Of a DNA stretch of 56,590 nt, positions 7,363 through 21,051 are shown in pieces. Under the pieces are notes generated by a model. It worked only from the letters and a program-made list of their open reading frames with translations, had not been told where the DNA came from and did no database searches. Made by a program: the position numbers and the translations under genes. Source of the DNA: an uncultured Eubacteriales bacterium. Lineage in GTDB: Bacteria > Bacillota > Clostridia > Oscillospirales > Oscillospiraceae. The stretch's first letter is position 1; each line of letters opens with the position of its first letter. The stretch is from assembly GCA_900321275.1 (NCBI GenBank), contig ONVI01000011.1, positions 1 through 56,590 on the forward strand, read 5' to 3'.

Positions 7363-8976
7363 TTAACCCCATAGCGCCGTGAGCGTCGGGATGAGCTGCT
7401 TTTTCCTGGACATCATGCCGGGAATGAAGAGATCGTTGTCCTTCGGCTCCTGGTTGAAGGCCTGGCGCATAATGTCGTCGCTGCCCACATAGAGAAGATG
7501 CGAGCCCTCGGACAGCACGTCTGTGAGCATGAGGATGACGATATCGAATTCGCTGTTTTTGCGGATCTTCTCCATGACGTCCAGAAATTCTTTCTTGCGG
7601 GCGAGGTAGGCGTCCGCGCCCACGCAGGTGATCTGGCTGACGCCGAGATTCTTTTCCGCGATGTGGAACTGTTTGTAGTCGGTGCGGAAAAGCTCCTCCG
7701 CGCTCTTGTCGGTGACACCGGCGGAGGTAAAGAGCGCCTTGCCCAGATCCTCGACGGACACGCGGGCGATGCGCGCCAGACGCTCGGCCATGGCGATGTC
7801 CTTCTTGGTGCAGGTGGGAGATTTGAACATGACCGTGTCCGAAAGAATGGCGGCGCACATGAGCCCCGCCATGGCGGGGGACGGCATGACGCCGTGCTCC
7901 TGATACATGGAGGTCAGAATGGTGTTGGTGGAGCCGACCGGCTCGTTGCGCACGGCGACGGGCATTTTGGTCTGGATATCCGCGAGGCGGTGATGGTCGA
8001 TGATGGCCATGATCTCCACCTGCTCAAGGCCGGGGACAGACTGCGCCGCCTCGTTATGATCCACCAGCACGACGCGCTTGCTCCGCGGGCGCAGCATGTG
8101 ATAGCGCGAGAGCGTGCCGACCACATGCTCCTGCTCGTCCAGCACGGGGTAATAATGGAAGCGGCTTTTGATCAGCGTCTCGCGCACATCGTCCACATAG
8201 TCCGCAAGGTGGAAAGAGATCAGATTCTCCGTCTGGCAGAAACGGGAGACAGGGATGCCCTGGAAAATCAGGCGCGCGACCTGCCGCGCGTTGAGCGGTG
8301 TGGAAATAATGCAGGTGGCCGCGGTGCTGTCCGCAAGCTCCTGCGGCACCTCCGTCTGGCAGAGGATCAGGCAGCCTACCCCGGCCTCCAGTGCCTTGCC
8401 GATGATCTCCGGCTGATCACCGCAGATGAGGATGCTGTCCTTGTCGGTGAAGCTTGCGTCCTCAAAGGCCTTTGGCAGCGCGATCGTCACCTTGCCGGAG
8501 ATCGTCTCCGTAATATTGGAATACTCGTTGACAAGCCGCCCCTCCAGAACGCTGATAAGATTAAACAGCGGCAGGGCGTCCACATGGCAGTCAAAGACAT
8601 TGCTCAGCTCATAGGCGGCGATATCGCCGGTAGAGAGCATGCCGTAGAGCGTGCCGTCATCGTTGAGGATCGGAATGGCCGAAACGCCGGAATCCTGCAT
8701 GGTGCGCCAGGCCAGATCCAGCGGGACGGACTTGTTCAGCTCCGTAGGGTGGTCAAAGTCCAGATCGGAGACCTGCGCCCGCATATTCTGGATATACATG
8801 GGCGGCTCAAAGCCGAAGCGGTCGAGCATGCGCTGGGTCTCGTCGTTGATCGCGCCGATGCGCACGGCTTTATATTCACGGTCGCCCAGCGCGTTGCGCA
8901 GGTTGGCATAGGCCATGGAGGCGACGATGGAGTCGGTGTCCGGATTGCGGTGCCCGCAGACATATATATCGTTCAT
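7363..8976 (-). CDS. ppaC: Mn-dependent family II inorganic pyrophosphatase with CBS and DRTGG domains
   Basis: Hydrolyses pyrophosphate and keeps biosynthesis running forward. The N-terminus MNDIYVCGHRNPDTDS holds metal ligands His9, Asp13 and Asp15 of the DHH superfamily; DHNE and IDHHRLADI supply the later DHH motif, and a DHHA2 domain closes the protein. Between the two catalytic halves an insert of about 230 residues contains CBS repeats (GVSAIPILNDDGTLYGMLSTGD and a second near HYYPVLDEQEHVVGTLSRY) flanking a DRTGG-like domain; in known CBS-PPases this insert binds adenine nucleotides and controls activity. The start was moved to 8976, where AGGAGG precedes ATG; the longer frame to 9033 runs into the promoter. 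First gene of the ppaC-dapF-nucleotidyltransferase operon. Confidence 0.93.
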   Translation of the reverse strand: MNDIYVCGHRNPDTDSIVASMAYANLRNALGDREYKAVRIGAINDETQRMLDRFGFEPPMYIQNMRAQVSDLDFDHPTELNKSVPLDLAWRTMQDSGVSAIPILNDDGTLYGMLSTGDIAAYELSNVFDCHVDALPLFNLISVLEGRLVNEYSNITETISGKVTIALPKAFEDASFTDKDSILICGDQPEIIGKALEAGVGCLILCQTEVPQELADSTAATCIISTPLNARQVARLIFQGIPVSRFCQTENLISFHLADYVDDVRETLIKSRFHYYPVLDEQEHVVGTLSRYHMLRPRSKRVVLVDHNEAAQSVPGLEQVEIMAIIDHHRLADIQTKMPVAVRNEPVGSTNTILTSMYQEHGVMPSPAMAGLMCAAILSDTVMFKSPTCTKKDIAMAERLARIARVSVEDLGKALFTSAGVTDKSAEELFRTDYKQFHIAEKNLGVSQITCVGADAYLARKKEFLDVMEKIRKNSEFDIVILMLTDVLSEGSHLLYVGSDDIMRQAFNQEPKDNDLFIPGMMSRKKQLIPTLTALWG

Positions 8977-9004
8977 AAAGCTCCTCCTGAGAACATGTAC
9001 GTGT

Positions 9005-9033
9005 ATTATACATAACACGGCAGAATCTTGCAA
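9005..9033 (-). promoter_or_regulatory. Promoter of the ppaC-dapF operon
   Basis: Minus-strand TTGCAA (9028-9033), 17-bp spacer, TATAAT (9005-9010), about 30 bp before the ppaC start. Confidence 0.8.
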
Positions 9034-9126: not shown

Positions 9127-10836
9127 TTACAGCACCTTGTTAAGGCCGACGAATTGATAGCCGCTGCCGTTTTCTTCGTACTCCGTGAGAAGCATATCGA
9201 CCGCCTCGGCCGTGTACTGCGCATTGTCGGAGAAGTGCATGACCAGAACGGCGCCGGGCTTGATATTCTTCTTTACCTCTTCGGCAAGCGCTTCGGCGCT
9301 TTCTGCCTTGTAGTCTGTGGTCGTGTAGTTACCGGCGATTGCGTGCGTGTAGCCGCAGTCGAAAACCGTCTCAAGTCCGTTTCTGCCGACGGCAAGCGTC
9401 GGCTGACGGAAGAGTAGACTCAGGGAGGGCTTGCCGTCTGCGTCGGTAAGATCGCCGATAATATACTGCATAGTATCGTAGCAGATGACGATATCTTCCT
9501 CCAGCTCCTTGCGCTGCTGCTCATCCAGTTCGACGAAATAGGTGGGCTGGACTTCATTGGACAGCGCAATATGCTTGTGCGTATGCGCTCCGACGGTGTG
9601 GCCCGCCCGGGCGATGGCACGCAGAAGATTGGGGTTATACGGAACATACTGGGTTTTGACGAAGAAGGTTGCGGTCGCGTTATGCTTTTCAAGAACGCTG
9701 AGCAGCCTGTCGACGGTGCCGTCGGTCCCCCAGTCGTCAAACGTCAGAAAGACATAGTTTCCGTTGTTTTCGATGATGCCGGTCTGATCCAGCTGACGCG
9801 CCTGTTCATCGGTGAAGCCGGGCAGGAAGTAGCGGGAGACAATCCACGGGATGCCGATGTAGCCTTCGCGGATGACTTCAAAAATCTCCTCCGGCGTTTT
9901 TCCTTCGAGGTGGCCCGGATAAATCTTATTTCTCACCTCGCGGAGGATCTGGTCCTTGGGCAGCGGGTACTGATACAGATTTTCGATATCTTCGGCGACC
10001 GCGTTTGCAGGAACCACCGGGTAACTGCATTTCTCTGCAGCGATCCGTTCAACAAGATCGCCGAGCACGGTATCGCCGTACTGGAAGAGACCCATCTGAA
10101 AATGGACAATCTCCCCGCGCTGGAGCATACCGTCATTCTCATTGAATATTTCGGAAATGATCTCCCTTGCGTCGGTCATGCGGCTGACCTTTTCAGGCAC
10201 GGCTTCCTTCAGCTCCGTCAGCACATGGAAGCCTCCCGCGGCAGCGGCCTGCTGCAGCGCGGCGTTGCCGGAGCCGAAGGTGGGCCGAACGAAGAGCTCA
10301 TAATAAGCCCGATAATCGCTGCGGAGCTTCTCCGCTTCCGATTGCATGGCGCCCAAAAGCTGGTTTACACCGGCGTTCTCGCCAAGCGCCACGCCGATGC
10401 CGAGGCTGTGGCCCGCGCGGGTGATCTGCTCCACCTGATCGGCGCGTGTTTCCAGATCCTCCGGCGTGACAAAGAAGGTCGCGCGGCTGCCGCTTTTTTT
10501 CAGCGCGTCCAGAACGGACTGAAGCTCCTGCTCATTTCCAAGGCCGGAAAAGGTAAACACGGCCGCTCGCGCGGTGGTATAGAAGCGGGATATGGGCGTG
10601 CCGTCGTTCGGCAGGGCAAGCGCCGCAGGAGCCGCGGCCGGATCTGCATCGTAATAGACGGCAGGCTCATAGGGCGCGTAGGTGGCCTCGGGCGCAGGAG
10701 GCTGATTCCCGCGCCGCAGTCCCTGCTCGGTAAAGAGCGGATTTTTGCGGAACCAGAGACCAAGGCCCGTAAAGATACAGATCAGGACGATGAAGGTCAC
10801 CGTCAGTCTCAGCTGTTTTCTCTTTTCAACCCCCAT
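9127..10836 (-). CDS. Membrane-anchored protein with two NodB-like polysaccharide deacetylase domains
   Basis: A 569-residue protein with one N-terminal membrane helix (about residues 9-27) that would hold it outside the cell. A first deacetylase-like domain (about 80-290) keeps the fold pattern (AAVFTFSGLG, ATFFVTPEDL) but has lost the catalytic TFDD and HxxxH residues. A second domain (about 360-565) is canonical: FLTFDDWG (Asp367-Asp368), ATFFVKTQYV, HTVGAHTHKH (about 412-422) and a C-terminal VLVMHFSD. It should remove N-acetyl groups from a polymer; the dead first domain may bind the chain. Start chosen at ATG 10836 with AAAGGTG upstream; a GTG four codons earlier lacks spacing. Last gene of the exopolysaccharide operon, 30 bp after the GH18-like gene. 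Confidence 0.83.
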   Translation of the reverse strand: MGVEKRKQLRLTVTFIVLICIFTGLGLWFRKNPLFTEQGLRRGNQPPAPEATYAPYEPAVYYDADPAAAPAALALPNDGTPISRFYTTARAAVFTFSGLGNEQELQSVLDALKKSGSRATFFVTPEDLETRADQVEQITRAGHSLGIGVALGENAGVNQLLGAMQSEAEKLRSDYRAYYELFVRPTFGSGNAALQQAAAAGGFHVLTELKEAVPEKVSRMTDAREIISEIFNENDGMLQRGEIVHFQMGLFQYGDTVLGDLVERIAAEKCSYPVVPANAVAEDIENLYQYPLPKDQILREVRNKIYPGHLEGKTPEEIFEVIREGYIGIPWIVSRYFLPGFTDEQARQLDQTGIIENNGNYVFLTFDDWGTDGTVDRLLSVLEKHNATATFFVKTQYVPYNPNLLRAIARAGHTVGAHTHKHIALSNEVQPTYFVELDEQQRKELEEDIVICYDTMQYIIGDLTDADGKPSLSLLFRQPTLAVGRNGLETVFDCGYTHAIAGNYTTTDYKAESAEALAEEVKKNIKPGAVLVMHFSDNAQYTAEAVDMLLTEYEENGSGYQFVGLNKVL

Positions 10837-10866
10837 GATAATGTTCACCTTTCTTGAGAGACGGCT

Positions 10867-11865
10867 TCAGCGCGCCCCCGAAAATGCCGCAAGGCTTTCG
10901 ATTCCGTTGCCGCCGAGACGGAACAGGTCAAAATGCGTATAGCCCATCGACCGAAGCGTGTCACGCCAGATTTCCAGCGTCTCGCCGTCCGCGTACCAGA
11001 CGGTATATTTTTTATCGCCGAAGACGACGGCCTTGAGAGCGCCGCTGTCGCTGTCGCGCTCCGGCTTCATGTCCTGCCGATCCAGCCACTCCTGCGCTTC
11101 CAGCTCGGTGAAAGCTCTTTCCACCGTTTTGCCCTCCCAGAGAAAGCCGCCGGTTGCGAAAGCCATATGCACCTCGCCCGGAACGGATTTCCAGCTCTCG
11201 CCGAGTTCCCTGAGGAAGGCAATATCCGCCTTTGGCCCCGGCCCGCTGTGGTAGCCGTACAGGTTATAGCACATGCAGCTGTATATCGGTCCCGCCGGGA
11301 ATTCCGCGTACTCCGGCGCGCCGCATTCCATCACCACGCGCAGGCTGATGCCGTTGTGGCTGAGGATCGGATAGAGCTGCTTGATAAACGCCGTGAAGGC
11401 CGCCCAGAGCTCCTTGTCTTTTTTGATGTTTTCGTAGTCGATTTCCAAGCCCTTAACGCCCTGCGAACGGATCAGCTGCATGATTTTCACAATGTGCGCG
11501 CTGCGCGCCGCGGGCGTCGAAAGCTGCTGCACGAGGAAGTCCTTTGACTTCTGCTTGAAGCTGCCGTCCTCCTGCTGCACGTCGTTGACCAGGGAGAGAT
11601 AGACGGGCACATCGAGCGCTTTCATCTCCTCCAGAAGCTGCTTCGATTCCGGCGGAAGGATCCAGTTTCCGTCCAGATCAAAGTAGGCTTCGAAGCAGAT
11701 CAGCGACTCAAAGGAATCGGGCAGTTCCCTGACTTCCCGCAGTGCCGAATCCACGTCCCAGTACGCCAGCCAGGCAGAGCTGCCGAATTCCTCATCCGCA
11801 AAGGCGGCAGGCGCGATCTGCAAAAGACCGAGGGCTGCCAGAAGCATGGTCAAGACTTTTTTCAC
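10867..11865 (-). CDS. Secreted GH18-like (YaaH/SleL-type) TIM-barrel glycosidase
   Basis: A 332-residue protein with a signal peptide ending AFA (residue 23). The barrel signature VKGLEIDYENI (about 138-147) matches the GH18 catalytic strand, with Asp143 and Glu145 in the positions of the catalytic pair, though the first Asp of DxxDxDxE is replaced. The C-terminal part KYTVWYADGETLEIWRDTL...LFRLGGN is like YaaH-type GH18 proteins that act on GlcNAc-containing polymers. It probably trims or remodels the polymer made by the neighbouring synthase. GTG start with CGGAGG upstream. It lies 19 bp after the deacetylase gene at 11885-13807. Confidence 0.7.
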   Translation of the reverse strand: MKKVLTMLLAALGLLQIAPAAFADEEFGSSAWLAYWDVDSALREVRELPDSFESLICFEAYFDLDGNWILPPESKQLLEEMKALDVPVYLSLVNDVQQEDGSFKQKSKDFLVQQLSTPAARSAHIVKIMQLIRSQGVKGLEIDYENIKKDKELWAAFTAFIKQLYPILSHNGISLRVVMECGAPEYAEFPAGPIYSCMCYNLYGYHSGPGPKADIAFLRELGESWKSVPGEVHMAFATGGFLWEGKTVERAFTELEAQEWLDRQDMKPERDSDSGALKAVVFGDKKYTVWYADGETLEIWRDTLRSMGYTHFDLFRLGGNGIESLAAFSGAR

Positions 11866-11884
11866 AGTGCTTCCTCCGAGATCT

Positions 11885-13807
11885 TCACGCCACCGTGGAC
11901 GACCAGTGGAACAGATTGCTCACCTTGTCGAAGAAGCGCCCGACGGGGCCTTCTTCCTCCACAACAACCGGCATAGGAGGGGCGTAGGCATAAATCGTGC
12001 TGCCGTCCAAACCGGTGATGGTCAGGTCGGAGAAGATGCCGTCATAGACGTCGTCGCTGAGGTTTGTCTGGCTGAAGCGCTCGGTGCCGCGGGTCACAGC
12101 GGATTCAAGACAGAATTCGCCTCCGGAGCCGGCGGAGACAGCCAGCTTGTCTGCCACGAGCTTACCGTCCAGCCAGACGGAAATCTGGCCGCCCTCAAGC
12201 CGGACGCGGAGGGTACGGTCGCCCTCTTCGTCAATGTCGAGTTCGGGGATAAAGGGCTCCGCGCCGTCGGCGATGGTAGGCGCGCGCATGGCGGTCAGTC
12301 TCTCCAGCTCCTGGCGGGCTTCGCTGATGCGCTCTTCATCCTGATCGTTTACGATGATGGTCGAGGCCAGCGCGATTTTTCCGTTGAGCTCTTCCTCCGG
12401 CTCGGAGACAAAGGGGCCGCCGTCAAAGCGGAGCAGATCCAGACGGAAGAGCTCCTCTTTCCCCTCGCCGTCCTCGACGATCAGATTGTTGTCATAAAGA
12501 CAGACGGTAACGCCGCCCAGTCCGGTCTCGTCCGTGCGGAACTTCAGCGCCTGCTGTCCGACAACGTTGCCCTGCAGGCGGACGGAGAGCTCGAGATCCT
12601 GCGGGAGATTTCGCGCAAGGCAGATCTCACCCTCGCCGTAGGGAAGTGTGGTCAGAATGATTTTTCGGTTCTTGTACTCCGCCACGCCGATTTTGCGCAC
12701 CCAGTCGATCGCCTTTGTCTCATCACCGAGACGAAAAACGACATTGTGGCCGGTATCGTCCCAGATACGCATCATCAGATGGTTCGGGGAGAAATACTGG
12801 CGGGACTGGAGGCGGCTGAGATCGTAGATGGAGGAATCGCGGGTGTTCAGGCAGGTCCCCTGCCGGTTGAAGTTCATGGCGAAGACCTTTTCCATCATCT
12901 CAGCATTCTTCCTGCTGACCAGAGGATCGTTGCCGAAAGCGCCGGTGTTGGAGTGCATCAGGATATAGAGGCCTGGTACATAGCCCAGATCTTCCTTGTA
13001 AAGCTCCTCCATTTTTTTGTAGTCCCATTCGATGCGCTCTTCCATCTCTTCGACGCTCTCCGTGCGCAGACGGTCCTCATCGCGCAGGAAATCCATCAGA
13101 TAGTGGTTGTAGTCGCGCCGGAGGAATGTATGGACATCCAGAAATTCCGGCAGGTTCAGATGGCCGAAGTAGTTTTCAAAACGGTCGAAAACATTGATAT
13201 AACTCAGGCGGTAGCCGTTGGAGCCCGCCTCCCAGAAGGTGGTGCGCTTGAGCTCGTTCATCTCGCTTGCGGTGATATAGTGCCCTGATTCATCGGAGAT
13301 GTTCTCTGCGAAGGTACAGGCCGTCGCGATGTAGTTATTCTTTCGCATCGCGGGGTAAGCCAGATGTGTTGTGTTCATAATGCCGTCCTCAAAAATGAGG
13401 ATCAGGGCTTTTTCCGGCAGCGAGGCGCCTTTTGTGTAGTAATCAATAACGTCCTGCTGTGTGATCGTCTGATAGCCGGAATCCTTGATGGTCTGCATCT
13501 GCTCGTCATAGGAGGCTTTGGTCACGATCTTGCCGTCAGGGCGCACGATATCCGTCAGACCGTTGTAGGAGATGGCGATGAAGTGCGGCCCTGTGGCCTT
13601 GCCCGCGGAGCTCAGCCCGCCGACGATCTCATCGCTCGGGATCATGGTGCATTCCATCTCGGCGTCTGCGCGGAGCACATGCTGCTTGGACCGGTAGCTG
13701 ACAAGCGACCAGACAGCCCAGACGATGACGGCCGCAATGATCATGACTTCAAGAATCGTGCGCACAATCTTGAAGATGTTTTTTCTGTGGAGTTTCCGTT
13801 CATCCAT
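11885..13807 (-). CDS. Membrane-anchored deacetylase-like protein with a C-terminal lectin-like region
   Basis: A 640-residue protein: a basic cytoplasmic start, one membrane helix (about 20-40), then a NodB-related region (about 70-390; HFIAISYNGLTDIV, ALILIFEDGIMNT, YILMHSNTGAFGN) and a beta-rich tail (about 400-610) that resembles a concanavalin-like sugar-binding domain (VRLEGGQISVWLDGKLVAD). The usual TFDD has become IFEDG, so hydrolysis is uncertain. The ATG at 13807 overlaps the end of the glycosyltransferase gene by 8 bp with AAGGAGG upstream, a strong sign of coupled translation with the synthase. A role in binding or modifying the polymer as it leaves the synthase is inferred. Confidence 0.65.
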   Translation of the reverse strand: MDERKLHRKNIFKIVRTILEVMIIAAVIVWAVWSLVSYRSKQHVLRADAEMECTMIPSDEIVGGLSSAGKATGPHFIAISYNGLTDIVRPDGKIVTKASYDEQMQTIKDSGYQTITQQDVIDYYTKGASLPEKALILIFEDGIMNTTHLAYPAMRKNNYIATACTFAENISDESGHYITASEMNELKRTTFWEAGSNGYRLSYINVFDRFENYFGHLNLPEFLDVHTFLRRDYNHYLMDFLRDEDRLRTESVEEMEERIEWDYKKMEELYKEDLGYVPGLYILMHSNTGAFGNDPLVSRKNAEMMEKVFAMNFNRQGTCLNTRDSSIYDLSRLQSRQYFSPNHLMMRIWDDTGHNVVFRLGDETKAIDWVRKIGVAEYKNRKIILTTLPYGEGEICLARNLPQDLELSVRLQGNVVGQQALKFRTDETGLGGVTVCLYDNNLIVEDGEGKEELFRLDLLRFDGGPFVSEPEEELNGKIALASTIIVNDQDEERISEARQELERLTAMRAPTIADGAEPFIPELDIDEEGDRTLRVRLEGGQISVWLDGKLVADKLAVSAGSGGEFCLESAVTRGTERFSQTNLSDDVYDGIFSDLTITGLDGSTIYAYAPPMPVVVEEEGPVGRFFDKVSNLFHWSSTVA

Positions 13808-15605
13808 GTTCGGCCGCCTCCTTCTGTCCGGCATTTGCCGCCATATCCGAACGCTTCTTGCCCTTGCCGCGCGTACCCCAGTCGTTCACCCAGAAGGTCA
13901 GCCACGCCCAGATCATCTGCCAGAGGAGAATGACCTCATAGTACAGGCAGAAGAAGAAGCCGTAGATCCACAGGCTGCTCTTCTTCAGAATCAGCTGGGC
14001 AAAGCACATCATCAGGGACATCATCAGCAGGCCGATCAGGAAGGCCGCAGGGAAGACATGCTTCACGAACGGGACATAAACCAGGTTGTAAAGGACGATG
14101 ATCGGCGCGATCAGCGGAACCAGCACACCGAGATAGAAGGACAGCGCCATAAAGGGCTGCTTTTTCCACATGAAGGTGCAGGCGCGCAGCGACTCGCGCA
14201 GCCAGGAGCGTTTCCAGCGCATCTGCTGGCGCAGGAACTGGCGGTTCTGATTCGGCACGATGGTTGAGCAGATCGCGTGATCCTGATAGCCGGTGCGGTA
14301 GTGCTCGACCACATAGTTTGTGAGGCTTCGGTCGTCGCCGAAGGTGGCCTTCTGCCCCATGAAGCGCTGGTTGATCCACTTGTCGAAAACCTCCTGTACC
14401 ACCTCAAGGCGGTAGCAGGACAGCGGGCCGCTCAGGCACATGACGGAATCAAAATAGGCTTCGGCGGCTTTCATGATACGGAAGGAGATGTAATAGCGCA
14501 CCGCCTGCATTTTGGTCAGCCAGTTGGTGTAGACGTTCGCAACGTCCGTCCTGCCGGCCACGCCGCCCATCTGCGGATCCTTCATCGGCTGGACGAGGGT
14601 GCGGATCGCGTTCGGATACAGGAAGCTGTCGGAGTCCACGAACACGATCAGCTCGGTCCGGGCGTTGCGGATGCCGATACCCATGGCCTCGCGCTTGCCC
14701 TGGTTGTAATTCTGGAAAAAGACGCGGACACGGTTCTCAATATTATACTGCGGACCTTCAGCGCACATGTCTCTGACGGTCTGCTTGATGACCTCGACGG
14801 ATTTGTCCGAGGAGCCGTCGTCCACGATGATCAGATCCAGCTTGTCGACCGGGTAGTCCTGGTCGGCGCATCGCAGGATCGTCTCCCGTATCCACTTCTC
14901 TTCATTGAAGCAGGGAATGACGATCGTCACGCTCGGCGTATATTCCGGGTCGACGGGCGTCGGTTTGTAGAAGGAGCCGAAGAGATAGCGCGACAGAAGG
15001 AAAATCGCCGTCATGATGCTGTAGCCGTACAGCCAGGGATTCGTGGCAAAATAGCGGATACTCTCCACGCGCATCGCCATAATGACCGAAGTGCACAGCG
15101 CGAGGAACAGGGTGGAAAGCAAAAACAGAATACGATCCGTTCTTTTGCGTGCTTCATAGAGCGGCTGATTAAACTGGATGGCGACGCAGTGTTTGGCCTC
15201 CAGAACGCGCACGATTTTGGCCTTCAGGCGCCGATAACGCATCTCGGTTCCTTCCTGAAGGTCTCCTTCATGGAGGCGGAAGTCCAGGGTGACGTTTTTC
15301 CCCTCAAGGTCGGTAATATCCACAGGCGCCGGCATTTTCAGGAGCATGCCGGTCTGGGAGAGGTTTTCCGTTTTCCCGCGGACAACCCTTCGCCCGATCG
15401 AGACGGCGACGTCTACCTCGACCTCATAGCGCTGCCCGGCAAATTCCGCGTACTCAGGGCGCGGCTCTCCCTCGTGATTGTTGCGGCGGCTGGTGTTGCT
15501 GCGCTTGCCGCTCGGGTCGGGCACGTTAGGGAAGAGTCGGCGATCCTTGGTCTCGTGAAGCAGAAGATCCGCCTCTGTTCTCTTCTTTTTTTCTTTCTTT
15601 TTCAT
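13800..15605 (-). CDS. Processive family-2 glycosyltransferase with N-terminal PilZ domain (exopolysaccharide synthase)
   Basis: A 601-residue membrane enzyme, the core of the operon. Residues about 51-150 form a PilZ-like domain with NLSQTG (81-86) in the place of the [DN]xSxxG cyclic-di-GMP motif; of the RxxxR motif only Arg59 is clear, with Phe at the first position. Two membrane helices (about 159-178 and 190-211) precede a GT-A catalytic domain: VIPCFNEEKW, VDDGSS (261-266), DxD in VDSDS (323-327), GDDR (423-426) and QQMRW (460-464), the QxxRW of cellulose, hyaluronan and poly-GlcNAc synthases. Three or four further helices follow. Known relatives polymerise and extrude a beta-linked sugar chain in one step. 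Start ATG overlaps the previous stop by 4 bases. PilZ at the N-terminus differs from BcsA, where it is C-terminal. Confidence 0.88.
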   Translation of the reverse strand: MKKKEKKKRTEADLLLHETKDRRLFPNVPDPSGKRSNTSRRNNHEGEPRPEYAEFAGQRYEVEVDVAVSIGRRVVRGKTENLSQTGMLLKMPAPVDITDLEGKNVTLDFRLHEGDLQEGTEMRYRRLKAKIVRVLEAKHCVAIQFNQPLYEARKRTDRILFLLSTLFLALCTSVIMAMRVESIRYFATNPWLYGYSIMTAIFLLSRYLFGSFYKPTPVDPEYTPSVTIVIPCFNEEKWIRETILRCADQDYPVDKLDLIIVDDGSSDKSVEVIKQTVRDMCAEGPQYNIENRVRVFFQNYNQGKREAMGIGIRNARTELIVFVDSDSFLYPNAIRTLVQPMKDPQMGGVAGRTDVANVYTNWLTKMQAVRYYISFRIMKAAEAYFDSVMCLSGPLSCYRLEVVQEVFDKWINQRFMGQKATFGDDRSLTNYVVEHYRTGYQDHAICSTIVPNQNRQFLRQQMRWKRSWLRESLRACTFMWKKQPFMALSFYLGVLVPLIAPIIVLYNLVYVPFVKHVFPAAFLIGLLMMSLMMCFAQLILKKSSLWIYGFFFCLYYEVILLWQMIWAWLTFWVNDWGTRGKGKKRSDMAANAGQKEAAEHG

Positions 15606-17161
15606 ACAGGATAATTCTCCCTGATATAGTCCACAACAGCGGCACAGCCTGCATCATTCAAATGGCAGCCGCGGGATGACAGATCCAGGCAGTAGTCCTC
15701 GCGGAGCTGGCCTGTTTCGTCACGCACCGCGCTGGCAATATCCACAAAGGGGATATCATACTCCCGGCACATGCCGCACAGTCTCAGATCCAGCTCAAAC
15801 CGGCTTTCATTCGAGACGCCCGCGTAGCCGTTCATCTTCGGGAGCACCGGCAGAATGACGATGCGGATATTCGGATTCTGATCCCGGATCTCCTTGATCA
15901 GCAGCCGGTATTTCGCGAGATAGGCCTCCCGGTGATAAGCGCCCGGATTTGCGTAGCCGAGGCAAAGCCATACGGACTTTGCGTTCATGTTCTTCAGGCG
16001 CCTGGCAAGATCGCCGATCTCACTCTCCCCCTCGAGCAGTTTTTCGACGGAGAGCTGGTTTTCGGTCAGAAACTGCGCGTCGTCCAGATAATCCCGCTCC
16101 ACCTCGCGCAGCCAGTCCACATAGGCGCCCAGCCCTTCGATCACCGCGTCGCCCACAAAGACCGCGCCTCTGAAATCGCCGGGGACTGCTTTGCGGGTCT
16201 CGCCCGTGCGCAGCGGCTCTCCGGTCACGGGAATCTCATAGCGCTCCGGATTTAGCAGCTTTTCTTCCTCGGGATCAAGCTCACGTATCTTGGACAGGAT
16301 CGTGCGCTTTTCGGACTGGAGTTTCATGGGATCCGTGAAGCTGTAGCCGTTTGCCTTGAGCGCATCCACCAGCCACATCACGATGTCCGGCAGAAGCGCA
16401 AAGCGCTCATCCTCGGTGCTCCACTCCCAGCGGATGCCGGGGCTCGGATCGATCGCCGGACGTTCGTCCAGCTTTCTGCCGGGGTCGTCATATTCGTTCT
16501 CGTCAAGCTCCTGTCCGAGCTTGACCGTGATAATGCTGCCGCGCAGAACATTCAGGACATAGGTCTCGGCGTCCTCCTGCGCGCGGAAGCTCTTGTGGTT
16601 CAGAAAAGCGGTCGGCTCGACCGCAGCCCGCAGTCCGGCGGCGGCAACCGCGCGCAGGACGCCGTCAGTATGGATCGTGCCGTTGCAGCGGGCCAGTTCC
16701 GGCTCTCTGCCGCAGGCGGCCGCGATCTCCTTCTGCGCCATCTTGAAGCGGCGCATGTTCTTATACGCGGAGAGCGTCTCCAGATGCTTTCCCCCGCTCA
16801 TGCCGTAATTGCCGATCGCAAAGCCCTGCGCGGCAAGCTTCTGCAAGACCTGCGGGTTTTCATTCGCGGTAATGCCGGAGATGAAGAACGTGGAAGGTAC
16901 GTCTCTGTCCTTCAAGACCTGGGCAATTGCCTCCATTGTCGCCGCATCCGTATAGCCCTCAAAAATCAGGCTGACAACCTTGCGGTCTGTCTCAACGCCG
17001 GTCAGAAGCTGCGCGGGCTGCGCCGTAACTGCCGGTTCGGGCGATGGTGTTACGGTCGGCGTCTGCGGCTGAGTCGCCGGGGTCTCGGCCTTTTTGCAGC
17101 CGGTCATGGACAGCAGAAGCGACAAGAGCAGCATCAGAACAATAATTCTCTTCAAGGCCAT
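15602..17161 (-). CDS. Lipoprotein with polysaccharide-deacetylase-like and SGNH-hydrolase domains
   Basis: A 519-residue protein with a lipoprotein signal peptide (lipobox LSMTGC, Cys22), so it should be lipid-anchored outside. After a Thr/Pro-rich linker a NodB-like fold (about 55-270) shows VSLIFEGYTDAATMEAIAQVL and VPSTFFISG but lacks the two catalytic Asp. From about 325 a GDSL/SGNH hydrolase domain follows: GAVFVGDAVIEGL (block I with Ala instead of Ser), LCLGYANPGAY and GCHLNDAGC (His block). AlgX/AlgJ and PatB-type relatives move acetyl groups on polysaccharides. Loss of the usual nucleophile Ser makes its chemistry uncertain. The ATG overlaps the upstream stop (TGATG), so translation is coupled. 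Confidence 0.75.
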   Translation of the reverse strand: MALKRIIVLMLLLSLLLSMTGCKKAETPATQPQTPTVTPSPEPAVTAQPAQLLTGVETDRKVVSLIFEGYTDAATMEAIAQVLKDRDVPSTFFISGITANENPQVLQKLAAQGFAIGNYGMSGGKHLETLSAYKNMRRFKMAQKEIAAACGREPELARCNGTIHTDGVLRAVAAAGLRAAVEPTAFLNHKSFRAQEDAETYVLNVLRGSIITVKLGQELDENEYDDPGRKLDERPAIDPSPGIRWEWSTEDERFALLPDIVMWLVDALKANGYSFTDPMKLQSEKRTILSKIRELDPEEEKLLNPERYEIPVTGEPLRTGETRKAVPGDFRGAVFVGDAVIEGLGAYVDWLREVERDYLDDAQFLTENQLSVEKLLEGESEIGDLARRLKNMNAKSVWLCLGYANPGAYHREAYLAKYRLLIKEIRDQNPNIRIVILPVLPKMNGYAGVSNESRFELDLRLCGMCREYDIPFVDIASAVRDETGQLREDYCLDLSSRGCHLNDAGCAAVVDYIRENYPV

Positions 17162-17871
17162 CACCACTTTTCCACGGCATTGTCGGGATCCTGTAAATCC
17201 CCTTCCGCCTCGATTCCGCGGAGCGTACGCAGGGACTGATCCAGATCGTTCTGCAGATTGAAATAGCGGTTTTCCAGCTCCTGACGGAAGCCCATCGCGT
17301 TGAAGTACGATGCGCGGACGGACGCAAGCGCGCGAGAGCGCATACTTTCGGCGTCGTCGATCATTTTCTGGCTCATGGCCGTCGCGCTCTCAATGATCTG
17401 CTGGGCGCGTTTGTTCGCTTCCCCGACGGGATCCGCCAAAAGAAGCTGATCTTTCTCCTCAAGCTCCCGCCGCTGGCGGGCGACACGGCTGCCGAGAACT
17501 GCAGCCTGAGATTTTGCGAGATCCAGCTCTGTCTGGAACTCACCCATTTTCACGTTTAAATCATCCAGCTCCATGCGGAGGCTGTACACCTCTTTTTCGC
17601 GCGTCCTGCATTCCTCGCTGAGCATCCGGTTTCGCTCCGTCAGGCGCTCATTTTCTTCCCGCAGGCGCGCGGCGTCCAGCTGAAGCTCCTTCAGCTCGGC
17701 GGCAATCCTCCGGGAATCCGCAAGCTCCTTCTTGACGCGCTCTTCGGCGGCGGCCTGTTCCTCATCCTTCTGCCGCAGAAGCTGCTCCGCCGTGTCGAGA
17801 AGGCGGTCGACATCCTCGGTCGGGTAACTGCCGAAGAGGTTCTTTTTTAACTGGTCTCTTTTCAGTTCCAT
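17161..17871 (-). CDS. DivIVA-like coiled-coil protein
   Basis: A 236-residue soluble protein. The first 30 residues (MELKRDQLKKNLFGSYPTED, then VDRLL) resemble the membrane-curvature-sensing N-terminus of DivIVA/GpsB, including the FxGY-like LFGSY. Residues about 30-150 are a long heptad-rich coiled coil full of Glu, Arg and Leu; a second helical stretch (about 150-225) with EANKRAQQIIESA is typical of DivIVA tails. DivIVA proteins gather at poles and septa and recruit other proteins. Inside this operon it may place the polymer synthase in the cell, which is inference. It follows the Pro/Ala-rich membrane protein by 12 bp. Confidence 0.65.
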   Translation of the reverse strand: MELKRDQLKKNLFGSYPTEDVDRLLDTAEQLLRQKDEEQAAAEERVKKELADSRRIAAELKELQLDAARLREENERLTERNRMLSEECRTREKEVYSLRMELDDLNVKMGEFQTELDLAKSQAAVLGSRVARQRRELEEKDQLLLADPVGEANKRAQQIIESATAMSQKMIDDAESMRSRALASVRASYFNAMGFRQELENRYFNLQNDLDQSLRTLRGIEAEGDLQDPDNAVEKW

Positions 17872-17883
17872 CTTTCCGTCCCC

Positions 17884-18672
17884 TCACTGCAGCAGATATT
17901 GTAAGAGCCCTGACTCATAGACGCAGAAGGCAAAAGAACCTGCCGTGAGCAAAAAGAGAATCATATTGATAAAGGATAGGACAACCGAGCGATCCTCTTC
18001 CTCTTCGTCAGGGATTTCGATCTCCTGAACGACATGCTCACTGCGCTCACTGTCGGGAGTCCAGTATGTCGTGCGCACCGGATCCAGAAAGGTGTCCGGC
18101 TTCCTGTCCGCCGGCTTTTCCGGTGTGTGAGCCGGAGCTGCGGGCTTTATCGGAGGTTCAGATACAGGCTGCTCCGCCGCAGGGGCGGGCGCGGGCTGCT
18201 CCGCCGCGTGGACAGGCGCGGGCTGTTCCGCCGCAGGAGCGGGTGCGGGCTGCTCTGCCGCTGATACTGCAGGCTTCCCGGCAGACTCGTCCGTCGACGG
18301 GGGCGCCGGCTCCGGTCTCGATTCGGGCTCGGACATTTCTCTGCGGAACGCGGCATGCACCGGTTCCGTCTGCGTTTCCTCCGAATCTTCCGGAATGGAA
18401 TTCTCCGCAATATAACTTGCCAGCTTATACGAGTTTTGCCCTGTTATGCTGTATACAAGGCAGGCCTGCGCCCTGATATAAAAATTCAAATCCTCAGGCG
18501 GATTGGTATACGCATATTTCTTTCTGAAATCCGTGAGAACAGCGTCTGCAAGAAGTTCTCTTGCCTCTTTGTCGGTGCACCATTTTTCCGCTTCCGTCAG
18601 TGCTGTATCCCGCCACTGACGCGTGAACGCCTCATAACGCGCGCGGTCAGCGAGACCTGCCATATTGCTCAT
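17884..18672 (-). CDS. Unrecognised Pro/Ala-repeat protein with a C-terminal membrane helix
   Basis: A 262-residue protein with no family I recognise. Residues 1-95 are helical and charged (RARYEAFTRQWRDTALTEAE). Residues about 100-200 are low-complexity and built from AAEQPAPAP-type repeats, at least four near-copies. Near 201-230 are TTYWTPDSERSEHVVQEIEI and an acidic run DEEEEDRS. A single hydrophobic helix (about 233-255) lies next to the C-terminus, as in tail-anchored proteins. The Pro/Ala linker would reach from the membrane into the cytoplasm. AAGGGG precedes ATG 18672. It sits between the sugar dehydrogenase (18 bp) and the DivIVA-like gene (12 bp), so a scaffolding role is possible. 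Confidence 0.6.
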   Translation of the reverse strand: MSNMAGLADRARYEAFTRQWRDTALTEAEKWCTDKEARELLADAVLTDFRKKYAYTNPPEDLNFYIRAQACLVYSITGQNSYKLASYIAENSIPEDSEETQTEPVHAAFRREMSEPESRPEPAPPSTDESAGKPAVSAAEQPAPAPAAEQPAPVHAAEQPAPAPAAEQPVSEPPIKPAAPAHTPEKPADRKPDTFLDPVRTTYWTPDSERSEHVVQEIEIPDEEEEDRSVVLSFINMILFLLTAGSFAFCVYESGLLQYLLQ

Positions 18673-18690
18673 TTGAAGTACCCCTTCGTT

Positions 18691-20025
18691 TTACAGTCTC
18701 CACCAGATGATGTCGCTCTTCTTAAGTTCGTTGATATCAAATATACCTTTAATATCAATCAGGATCTTCACGTCATTTCTGCCGAAAAGACGCAGCAGGC
18801 CTTCGACGCCGAGCTCGCAGAACTCTCTGTGCGCCACTGCCACGACCACACAGTCCGCATCGCGGATCTCGTCCATCGGCGTCAGCGTCAGGCCGTAAAC
18901 CTTTTTTGCGGCGTCAGGGTCAGCCCAGGGATCGACGATCGCCGTTTCAATTCCGTATTTGCCCAGTTCAGAAACAATGTCGGCCACGCGGCTGTTGCGC
19001 ACATCCGGGCAGTTTTCCTTGAAGGTGAGGCCAAGCATGACGACCCTGCTCTTCTTCGGCGCAAGGCCCGCCTGGACCATTTTTTTCACGGTCTTATGCG
19101 CCACGAACTCCGCCATGCCGTCGTTTACGATGCGGCCGTTCAGAATGATCTGGCTGTGATAGCCCAACTTCTCCGCCTCATAGGTAAAATAGTACGGGTC
19201 CACGCCGATGCAGTGACCGCCGACCAGGCCGGGCTTAAAGCCGAGAGCGTTCCACTTTGTATTCATGCCGTCGATGACCTCATTGGTGTCGATGCCCATG
19301 CGGTCAAAAACCATGGCCAGTTCGTTCATGAAGGCGATGTTGATGTCCCGCTGGCTGTTTTCGACGACCTTTACCGCCTCCGCGGTCTTGATGCTGCTGA
19401 CCGGGAAAGTGCCGGCCGCGATTATGATATCATAGACCTGTTTGATGATACGACAGGTCTCGTCATCCATACCGGAGACAATCTTCCGGATCGTTGTCAG
19501 CGTATGTACCGTATCGCCCGGATTGATGCGCTCCGGACTGTAGCCGATCTTGAAGTCCACCCCGCAGGTGAGGCCGGATTCCTCCTCCAGAATCGGAACG
19601 CAGATATCCTCCGTCACGCCGGGATAGACAGTGGATTCATAAACCACGACAGAGCCCGGCGTCAGGTTGCGCCCCAGAATGCGTGAGGCGTTCTGCACCG
19701 GAAACAGATCAGGGGTATGGTCGGTATTGATGGGCGTAGGCACAGCGATGATATGAAACTTCGCCTCGCGCAGCTTCGTCTCGTCGGAGGTAAAATCCAC
19801 CGTCGTGCTGCGGATCGCTTCATTGCCGACCTCCATGGTCGGGTCTATCCCACATTTATACTGCTGAATTCTCGCCTCGTGATGGTTAAAGCCGATCACA
19901 CGCACGTGCTTTGCATATTCCACCGCCAGCGGCATGCCGACATAGCCCAGGCCGATCACGGAAAGGCACGTCTCTCCGCTGCGAAGCCGCTCATACAGTG
20001 TCCCGTAATCACATTCTGTTTTCAT
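18691..20025 (-). CDS. UDP-N-acetylhexosamine 6-dehydrogenase (WbpO/TviB/WbpA-type nucleotide-sugar dehydrogenase)
   Basis: A 444-residue NAD-dependent enzyme that oxidises the C6 of a UDP-sugar to the uronic acid. The Rossmann motif is GLGYVG (25-30), the central EAVKVVENSQRDINIAFMNE is typical, and the catalytic Cys272 lies in GGHCIGVDPYYFTYEAEKLG, the form found in UDP-GlcNAc/GalNAc dehydrogenases (WbpA, TviB) rather than UDP-glucose dehydrogenase. The C-terminal domain VVMLGLTFKENCPDVRNSR is intact. It is the first gene of the eight-gene operon and would supply its uronic-acid precursor. Two promoters precede it (20097-20126 and 20224-20252). Substrate choice is inferred from family resemblance. 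Confidence 0.9.
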   Translation of the reverse strand: MKTECDYGTLYERLRSGETCLSVIGLGYVGMPLAVEYAKHVRVIGFNHHEARIQQYKCGIDPTMEVGNEAIRSTTVDFTSDETKLREAKFHIIAVPTPINTDHTPDLFPVQNASRILGRNLTPGSVVVYESTVYPGVTEDICVPILEEESGLTCGVDFKIGYSPERINPGDTVHTLTTIRKIVSGMDDETCRIIKQVYDIIIAAGTFPVSSIKTAEAVKVVENSQRDINIAFMNELAMVFDRMGIDTNEVIDGMNTKWNALGFKPGLVGGHCIGVDPYYFTYEAEKLGYHSQIILNGRIVNDGMAEFVAHKTVKKMVQAGLAPKKSRVVMLGLTFKENCPDVRNSRVADIVSELGKYGIETAIVDPWADPDAAKKVYGLTLTPMDEIRDADCVVVAVAHREFCELGVEGLLRLFGRNDVKILIDIKGIFDINELKKSDIIWWRL

Positions 20026-20096: not shown

Positions 20097-20126
20097 ATTT
20101 TATCTCTATCTCCATGCCGCTGTCAA
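20097..20126 (-). promoter_or_regulatory. Proximal promoter of the exopolysaccharide operon
   Basis: Minus-strand TTGACA (20121-20126), 18-bp spacer, TAAAAT (20097-20102). The palindrome ACAAATTTGT lies just downstream (about 20083-20092) and could be an operator. Confidence 0.6.
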
Positions 20127-20382: not shown

Positions 20383-21051
20383 TTACGGCGTTTTCGGAAG
20401 CGTTGGCGCTGTGGTGAACTCCCGCAGGATCGCGTTTTTCAGCAGCAGAAGCTCCCCTTCCGGTTCACCGGCCCCTTCAGCCAGGTAAACAAGACCCACC
20501 GCATAGCGCGTCACTGCGGCCAGCATGATGTGAAACACTGAGGAGATCATCTCCGTCTCGGAAATGTCCGTGCGCACCGTGCCATCCTTCTTTGCCTTGT
20601 CGTAGACGCTGTGGAAGTTGGCCATGATTCTTCCGATCATGTCCAGATATGGACTCATTTGCTCCCGGGAGGGCTGTTCGCTTCTTATATAGATATTGAA
20701 AAATTGATTGAACCGCAGGATATCCCGCTCATTGCGGTACAGCTCCAGAAACAGCTCCAAATAGCGGTCAAGATGCTCGGCGGCGGTCAGATTCGTCAGC
20801 TCCGCCGCCGGGTTGGCGGCCTGCTGCGTCCGGATGTATTCTTCCCATTTCCAGGTGCTGACGGCGACAACCAGATCGGACTTGGCGGAGAAATAACGAT
20901 AGAGCGAAGAGCGCCCTACCCCGGCAGCTTCAGCGATCTCGGGCATTGTAACGGTCTCGATCCCGCGCTGCGAAAAAAGGCGGAAGCCCTCCTCCAGAAT
21001 GCGCCTGCGCTTCTGCGCCATCTGTGCGGCATCCTTCGCTTTATCCCTCAC
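20383..21051 (-). CDS. TetR/AcrR-family transcriptional regulator
   Basis: A 222-residue regulator. The N-terminal helix-turn-helix is clear: RRRILEEGFRLFSQRGIETV, then EIAEAAGVGRSSLYRYFSAK (about 17-62). The C-terminal ligand-binding part is a variable helical bundle whose effector cannot be read. It is divergent from the carbohydrate ABC operon (start-to-start about 270 bp), and an inverted repeat TGCGTAT/ATACGCA (21163-21187) lies between, so control of itself and perhaps of the transporter is likely. It is separated from the exopolysaccharide operon by a terminator-like hairpin. Confidence 0.88.
   Translation of the reverse strand: MRDKAKDAAQMAQKRRRILEEGFRLFSQRGIETVTMPEIAEAAGVGRSSLYRYFSAKSDLVVAVSTWKWEEYIRTQQAANPAAELTNLTAAEHLDRYLELFLELYRNERDILRFNQFFNIYIRSEQPSREQMSPYLDMIGRIMANFHSVYDKAKKDGTVRTDISETEMISSVFHIMLAAVTRYAVGLVYLAEGAGEPEGELLLLKNAILREFTTAPTLPKTP

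Follow-up and report, generated by a model that had tools for sequence, protein, structure and literature searches.

A widespread and apparently undescribed operon of Bacillota with a hyaluronan-synthase-like glycosyltransferase and possible cyclic-di-GMP control

Results

An eight-gene operon with a conserved core

The window analysed here is a stretch of 56,590 nucleotides (positions 1-56,590 of contig ONVI01000011.1) from an uncultured Eubacteriales bacterium (Oscillospiraceae), whose genome assembly (GCA_900321275.1) holds 2.74 Mb in 101 contigs and is 93% complete. Positions 9127-20025 carry an operon of eight open reading frames (ORFs), all on the minus strand; read in the direction of transcription, the junctions between them measure 18, 12, -7, -4, -35, 19 and 18 nt (range -35 to +19), bearing out the close packing reported in a preliminary description of this DNA. 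The fifth gene encodes a synthase in which a PilZ domain is fused to a glycosyltransferase family 2 (GT2) domain, and its partners include a nucleotide-sugar dehydrogenase, three proteins with NodB-type deacetylase folds and a protein resembling glycoside hydrolase family 18 (GH18). Pfam and NCBIfam agreed with the gene assignments made earlier, the DivIVA-like and GH18-like calls falling below curated cut-offs.

Scanning a single genome of each species gave 335 stretches encoding synthase relatives, which may take in other GT2 families, and the best 80 loci were analysed using crude six-frame ORF calls and profiles made from the window proteins. The PgaB-like gene was the next gene downstream of the PilZ-GT2 synthase in all 78 loci with enough sequence (78/78), a GH18-like gene lay downstream in 65/69 and a NodB-fold gene upstream in 75/78; a second NodB gene was found downstream in 30/62, and the dehydrogenase of UDP-N-acetylhexosamine (UDP-HexNAc) type upstream in 45 of the 60 loci with more than 4.8 kb of upstream sequence. 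All eight families stood on the correct sides of the synthase in 7/80 loci (L015, L016, L018, L019, L021, L023 and L026). The expectation that an exopolysaccharide-type gene order would recur in related genomes was thus upheld, the core being kept far more widely than the full set, and the counts among these loci speak against a chance or unique arrangement, which we rejected. Among the organisms named in the locus titles are Pelosinus, Sporomusa, Selenomonas, Mitsuokella, Pectinatus, Dialister, Clostridium, Butyrivibrio, Faecalibacterium prausnitzii and two Lactobacillus species; a Paenibacillus plasmid shows the same succession of NodB, synthase, PgaB-like and GH18-like genes, which its annotation treats only one by one.

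In the synthase tree, 21 window-type loci formed one clade and all 27 Negativicutes loci another, each with a Shimodaira-Hasegawa-like approximate likelihood ratio (SH-aLRT) value of 100. Two loci titled Chloroflexi (L051 and L072) have synthases that fall among Bacillota sequences, a case either of transfer or of a naming or binning problem. An even sample of the phylum gave a full-length synthase match in 8/398 genomes, one of them that of the window, and three others had a shorter relative that lacks the PilZ part. Within the window's own family, 4/300 genomes matched at 1e-30, three at full length including the window's genome, and five listed genomes of the same genus gave no match when the top few candidates per genome were scored; the synthase is therefore patchy in this family, although loci 84-96% identical exist. 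A protein search with the synthase scored 7995 candidates, of which 4201 had E <= 0.001; most of the best 120 carried no annotation beyond glycosyltransferase. A single clade has the eight-gene set as its own form of a broader system, the core of which is widespread in Bacillota. The preliminary description knew of no system with this set and order; we found no description of it in the open-licence PubMed Central (PMC) literature, preprints and subscription papers being outside the search. The operon family is thus widespread and apparently undescribed.

The synthase core is related to hyaluronan synthase

The synthase (13800-15605, minus strand; 601 aa), assigned by Pfam, profile and fold searches and a structural model, comprises an N-terminal extension with DRR motifs, a PilZ barrel (about residues 57-150), two transmembrane (TM) helices, a GT2 domain like that of hyaluronan synthase (HAS), C-terminal TM helices and a WGTR motif. 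The GT2 domain was matched by Pfam, and its nearest PDB relative by profile was hyaluronan synthase (1.9e-46). Structure prediction, proposed earlier as a check, returned the same HAS-like core: in a Foldseek search with the model (predicted local distance difference test score, pLDDT, 83.2) the first 13 matches were hyaluronan synthase, the PilZ part being hardly tested by this fold search. Both the core fold and the QxxRW and WGTR motifs of hyaluronan synthase are present, WGTR being seen in the profile alignment as well; the GT2 motif residues and WGTR are invariant in 80/80 loci. That this core and hyaluronan synthase are related is therefore directly supported.

The mannosyltransferase 6yv7 ties with HAS by VIA Z (30.5, 331 aligned), and among NCBIfam equivalogs the synthase scores highest with NodC (202.7 bits, cut-off 550). 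Both count against the uronate-containing product favoured here, as do the dehydrogenase-free loci described below. Because NodC is the best equivalog, and because Pfam Chitin_synth_2 also matches the synthase, we considered a chitin- or chitosan-like homopolymer of N-acetylglucosamine (GlcNAc), trimmed and deacetylated, with the dehydrogenase serving another glycan or an optional decoration. NodB and GH18 folds would fit a GlcNAc polymer, and the dehydrogenase is not adjacent to the operon in 15/60 loci. Among these 15 host genomes, eight have a 57-68% identical dehydrogenase copy elsewhere, three have only relatives of 35-37% identity, and four (metagenome-assembled genomes that may be incomplete) have no homologue at E 1e-60. 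We regard the homopolymer as unlikely and favour a polymer containing a uronate made by the dehydrogenase.

A probable UDP-HexNAc dehydrogenase

The first gene (18691-20025, minus strand) encodes a 444-aa protein with the N-terminal, central and C-terminal UDPG_MGDP_dh domains of Pfam, assigned by Pfam, NCBIfam and comparison of loci as a TviB-type UDP-N-acetylhexosamine 6-dehydrogenase and hence a predicted precursor enzyme; its nearest solved relatives are 4r16 and Cap5O (3ojl). TviB, a UDP-GlcNAc C6-dehydrogenase, was its best NCBIfam equivalog (457.9 bits, below the cut-off of 592), followed by models for the dehydrogenases of UDP-N-acetylmannosamine (UDP-ManNAc; 212.8 and 203.4 bits) and UDP-glucose (UDP-Glc; 143.5 and 125 bits). 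The same ranking held for the window protein together with five relatives, where TviB scored best at 375-458 bits, UDP-ManNAc dehydrogenase reached 200-237 and UDP-Glc dehydrogenase 121-165 among the larger matches, none of the six reaching any equivalog cut-off. The earlier proposal of a precursor enzyme for an N-acetylhexosamine (HexNAc) uronate accords with these scores.

Two other precursors were weighed. A HAS-like core invites the reading that the enzyme makes UDP-glucuronic acid (UDP-GlcA) for a hyaluronan- or heparosan-like product, and HAS operons pair the synthase with a UDP-Glc dehydrogenase; set against this, the UDP-Glc dehydrogenase models score far below TviB in all six dehydrogenases, and we consider this reading very unlikely. 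A ManNAc-uronate also appeared less likely, the window genome, at 93% completeness, having no over-cut-off UDP-GlcNAc 2-epimerase and only a PF02350 match below the cut-off. Nor did this genome contain another close dehydrogenase, the nearest copy being 29% identical and containing a stop.

One canonical deacetylase among altered partners

Four NodB domains are encoded in the operon, and canonical motifs occur only in the C-terminal domain of the last gene (9127-10848, minus strand; Pfam Polysacc_deac_1, 3.6e-27). Its product, assigned by Pfam and motifs, is a membrane-anchored protein of 573 aa with two NodB domains and a predicted polymer N-deacetylase; the N-terminal domain is altered (FTFSG), and the C-terminal one has the CE4/NodB motifs TFDDW at 368 and HTHKH at 422 (numbering of a longer gene call). 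FDDW is kept in 66/68 homologues, and FDDW together with H[ST]xxH in 63/68.

The gene preceding the synthase (15602-17167, minus strand; Pfam, alignment) encodes a lipoprotein-like protein of 521 aa with NodB and SGNH folds (Polysacc_deac_1, 4.5e-15; Lipase_GDSL_2, 9.6e-11) preceded by a lipobox-like signal. Both of its active sites are altered: glycine occupies the metal-aspartate position of the NodB domain, and asparagine or serine the motif-2 histidine position, in 42/42 aligned relatives, and the SGNH domain has GDA where GDS is expected, the change from serine to alanine occurring in the window and in 8/27 aligned relatives.

The gene that follows the synthase (11885-13834, minus strand; PgaB model, AlphaFold2, motifs) encodes a PgaB-like membrane-anchored protein of 649 aa. 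It matches the PgaB model at 1e-11, and in the AlphaFold2 model (pLDDT 87.5) residues 79-361 match PgaB and residues 370-611 match CBM66, a lectin-like domain. The motifs FEDG, G[ST]NGYR and MHxNT are conserved in 75 relatives; of the metal-dependent deacetylase motifs of PgaB and IcaB, the motif-2 histidines are lost family-wide and a conserved N-G-Y-R stands in their place, a correspondence based on order, spacing and known PgaB motifs rather than on a residue-level structural alignment. We rejected a normal deacetylase on these motifs. Of the two deacetylase-like proteins proposed earlier downstream of the synthase, the last gene's product therefore stands as such and the PgaB-like protein does not. 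In Pelosinus-type loci, a single protein of ~887 aa replaces the NodB genes and carries an LTFDGL-type stretch as well as a canonical one with TFDDW and HSDxH; motifs and lengths suggest that the pair of NodB genes in the window is the split form of it.

The seventh gene (10867-11865, minus strand; Pfam below cut-off, family profile) encodes a secreted GH18-like protein of 332 aa (Glyco_hydro_18, 2.7e-4, 21.2 bits, cut-off 29.6) that keeps a catalytic-looking [ED]xD[YF]E motif, the aspartate and final glutamate being invariant in 69/69. Its family profile is nearest to YdhD (3cz8, 6.5e-19) and YaaH and so resembles spore or cortex enzymes, and the best-scoring model for the canonical NodB domain is PdaB, a sporulation model (125.4 bits, below the cut-off of 237.4), which would favour an operon that modifies the cell wall or spore cortex instead of making a secreted polymer. 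However, cortex processing has no use for a processive HAS-like synthase accompanied by a nucleotide-sugar dehydrogenase of its own, the hosts include Lactobacillus and Faecalibacterium, which do not sporulate, and the Negativicutes loci carry an outer-membrane-type protein, making this reading highly improbable.

A probable outer-membrane partner in diderm relatives

When neighbouring genes were clustered, 25 loci proved to have a protein of about 370-1110 aa next to the dehydrogenase, and a profile of it matched 26 of the 27 loci assigned to Negativicutes by title and 0/53 other loci; the 27th, L065, has only 1.9 kb upstream of the synthase. Their C-terminal ends are rich in aromatic residues, as is typical of barrels; one of the proteins matches Porin_4 (2.1e-4, below cut-off), and an N-terminal TPR region is present in the Sporomusa version (L078:2587-5916, plus strand). 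Although most members have no Pfam match, their sequences suggest a beta-barrel outer-membrane protein. Negativicutes are diderm, and the presence of an additional barrel-like protein in precisely these relatives points to polymer export more strongly than any other observation made here.

The PilZ domain and possible c-di-GMP control

Control by cyclic-di-GMP (c-di-GMP) had been raised as a possibility. The PilZ fold itself was recovered (PF07238, 1.8e-7, 31.9 bits, cut-off 22.5), and the [DN]xSxxG motif is kept, with aspartate in 64 or asparagine in 15 rows, serine in 79/79 and glycine in 80/80, one row lacking the N-terminus. Published PilZ receptors use RxxxR together with DxSxxG (PMC8461298, PMC12564702). 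In the window RxxxR is incomplete: its first arginine, four residues before R59, is absent in 78/79 relatives, L058 being the only one to have it. R59, R35 and the DRR-type pairs R22-R23 and R40-R41 are invariant in 79/79. Since DxSxxG is kept and R59 and the upstream DRR pairs are invariant, a rewired arginine supply is possible, and we hypothesized from the alignment that these conserved residues could stand in for the missing one.

Several observations weigh against c-di-GMP control besides the missing arginine. At Rfam gathering thresholds, neither the window nor any of the six loci scanned out of the 80 showed a c-di-GMP riboswitch. GGDEF domains were present in 37/37 host genomes examined for the 80 loci (E <= 1e-3); this says little by itself, because 371/398 phylum genomes also match at a stricter E <= 1e-10, and on this base rate we set it aside as proof. 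GGDEF-type genes lay near 9/80 loci without clear enrichment (Pfam identity checked in two members), about what tens of GGDEF genes per genome could give, and a local partner was therefore not invoked. In two loci such genes adjoin the operon, namely a GGDEF response-regulator-like gene (L054:2283-3995, plus strand) and an EAL-GGDEF gene (L085:16994-19042, plus strand).

The genus Lactobacillus offers a better contrast than the phylum. Among 61 genomes the synthase occurred in one, L. equicursoris, with 18 GGDEF matches. The remaining 60 comprised 52 without any such match, seven with one and one (G777) with ten. L. nasalidis, outside this sample, has the operon and 17 GGDEF matches, so that both operon-bearing genomes (L037/G313 and L044/G316, with 18 and 17) lie far above 59 of the 60 others. 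Two points temper this contrast: G777 has no synthase match, three of its ten GGDEF matches having an internal stop, and the two operon-bearing species are sisters in the synthase tree and may represent one event. Their synthases group with one from Lachnospiraceae, suggesting transfer. According to PMC6123363, L. acidophilus has a single gene for a diguanylate cyclase, and its c-di-GMP-linked operon is another one, gts.

The alternative is a structural PilZ domain that does not bind c-di-GMP, in an operon under transcriptional control. A TetR-family gene (20383-21051, minus strand) lies upstream of the operon, and because close homologues lie upstream of it in L026, L027, L030 and L051, this gene may be a linked regulator; together with the missing arginine and the lack of a riboswitch in the scanned loci, this makes a structural PilZ a possibility that we take seriously but do not favour. 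It is opposed by the conserved DxSxxG and arginine residues, by the wealth of GGDEF matches in the operon-bearing Lactobacillus, and by the window genome, where the only PilZ match, that of the synthase, accompanies 41 GGDEF matches. As the first arginine of RxxxR is absent in nearly all relatives, we describe c-di-GMP control as plausible and the earlier suggestion of it as supported in part.

Clade-specific genes and flanking features

The second gene (17884-18672, minus strand; homologues, alignment) encodes a Pro/Ala-rich protein of 262 aa whose sole hydrophobic stretch, at 229-253, lies near the C-terminus. The third (17161-17871, minus strand; homologues, alignment) encodes a coiled-coil DivIVA-like protein of 236 aa, matching the DivIVA_Wag31 model weakly (E 7e-4, below cut-off). 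Homologues occur in 18/80 and 15/80 loci, all within the 21-row window clade, whose loci lacking one or the other include contig-end cases. Upstream of the first gene, a consensus scan alone gave a sigma-70-like promoter match (20097-20126, minus strand; TTGACA-18-TAAAAT, 11/12); such matches are weak evidence, the scan of 12.3 kb giving 10 promoter-like sites where 4.5 were expected. Directly downstream of the operon lies a Family II-type DHH/DHHA2 pyrophosphatase gene with CBS and DRTGG domains (7363-9033, minus strand), also found downstream in L026, the sole match among the loci searched.

Discussion

We consider it likely that the operon is a synthase-dependent exopolysaccharide system working as follows. 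The dehydrogenase would oxidise UDP-GlcNAc, or less likely UDP-N-acetylgalactosamine (UDP-GalNAc), to the uronate, which the membrane synthase would polymerise, probably with UDP-GlcNAc, as HAS does with its two sugars, while extruding the chain. The N-terminal PilZ domain, aided by the upstream arginine-rich extension in place of the first arginine, may use c-di-GMP to gate the synthase. Once the chain is outside the membrane, the last gene's canonical NodB domain would take off some N-acetyl groups, the altered NodB and PgaB-like domains and the CBM66-like domain may bind or steer it, and the GH18-like enzyme would trim it. The Pro/Ala-rich and DivIVA-like proteins would have been added in the window's clade only, perhaps to position the synthase within the cell. 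The product is most likely an exported, partly N-deacetylated polymer containing a HexNAc-uronate, a composition that follows the prediction of the preliminary description. In many bacteria of the gut and rumen, such an operon probably provides a surface polymer that an internal signal molecule may switch.

A bolder extension, which we hold to be distinctly unlikely, is a large and so far unrecognised class of c-di-GMP-gated HAS-like machines in monoderm and diderm Bacillota that make an alternating polymer of HexNAc-uronate and hexosamine, N-acetylated or not. Its PilZ domain would have a rewired arginine set, and its PgaB-like protein, far from being a dead deacetylase, a new activity on the NodB fold (for example as uronate epimerase, lyase or chain chaperone) with a conserved E-D / N-G-Y-R / H-x-N-T site.

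A review of c-di-GMP-controlled exopolysaccharides (PMC8461298) covers cellulose, alginate, Pel and poly-N-acetylglucosamine (PNAG). Another conserved system, present in Clostridia of rumen and gut, in Negativicutes and Faecalibacterium, in some Lactobacillus and in a Paenibacillus, would extend this list by a predicted HexNAc-uronate polymer, and would supply a candidate output for the 41-GGDEF network of the window genome. It also lets one machine be compared, as nature provides it, between hosts that have an outer membrane and hosts that do not, and its conserved but altered NodB sites could be tested as new activities or as pseudoenzymes that guide the polymer.

The known systems each share part of this design. 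Hyaluronan synthase has the GT2 core, the Q-Q-x-R-W and W-G-T-R motifs, the C-terminal TM helices and a paired dehydrogenase gene, but the present system differs in its N-terminal PilZ domain and arginine-rich extension, in a dehydrogenase that is HexNAc-type by model scores, and in its NodB, PgaB-like and GH18-like partners. PNAG systems (PgaABCD, IcaADBC) likewise join a membrane GT2 to PgaB-fold and GH-fold partners, with an outer-membrane protein in diderms; here, in contrast, the PgaB-like protein lacks the motif-2 histidines and carries a CBM66-like domain, a dehydrogenase is added, and the synthase is nearer to HAS and NodC (202.7 bits) than to PgaC (119.6 bits, against the PgaC/IcaA cut-off of 422.3). 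In alginate operons a dehydrogenase for a uronate precursor also comes first, PilZ is also tied to polymerisation and there are editing enzymes as well, whereas here PilZ is fused to the synthase, the dehydrogenase is of UDP-HexNAc type and NodB proteins replace the acetylation genes. The fusion of GT2 with PilZ is shared with the cellulose synthase BcsA and clostridial Ccs; the CelA model gave only 35.7 bits against a cut-off of 699.1, and PilZ is N-terminal here, not C-terminal. Escherichia coli NfrBA, the N4 glycan receptor, combines a GT2 with a fused c-di-GMP domain, a HexNAc polymer and a TPR/barrel outer-membrane partner, as described in PMC8669469, but has an MshEN domain instead of PilZ and a proposed UDP-ManNAc substrate, and lacks the dehydrogenase and NodB set. 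Matching none of these families in full, the system unites a core resembling hyaluronan synthase with the partners of PNAG, the logic of alginate and the wiring of NfrBA.

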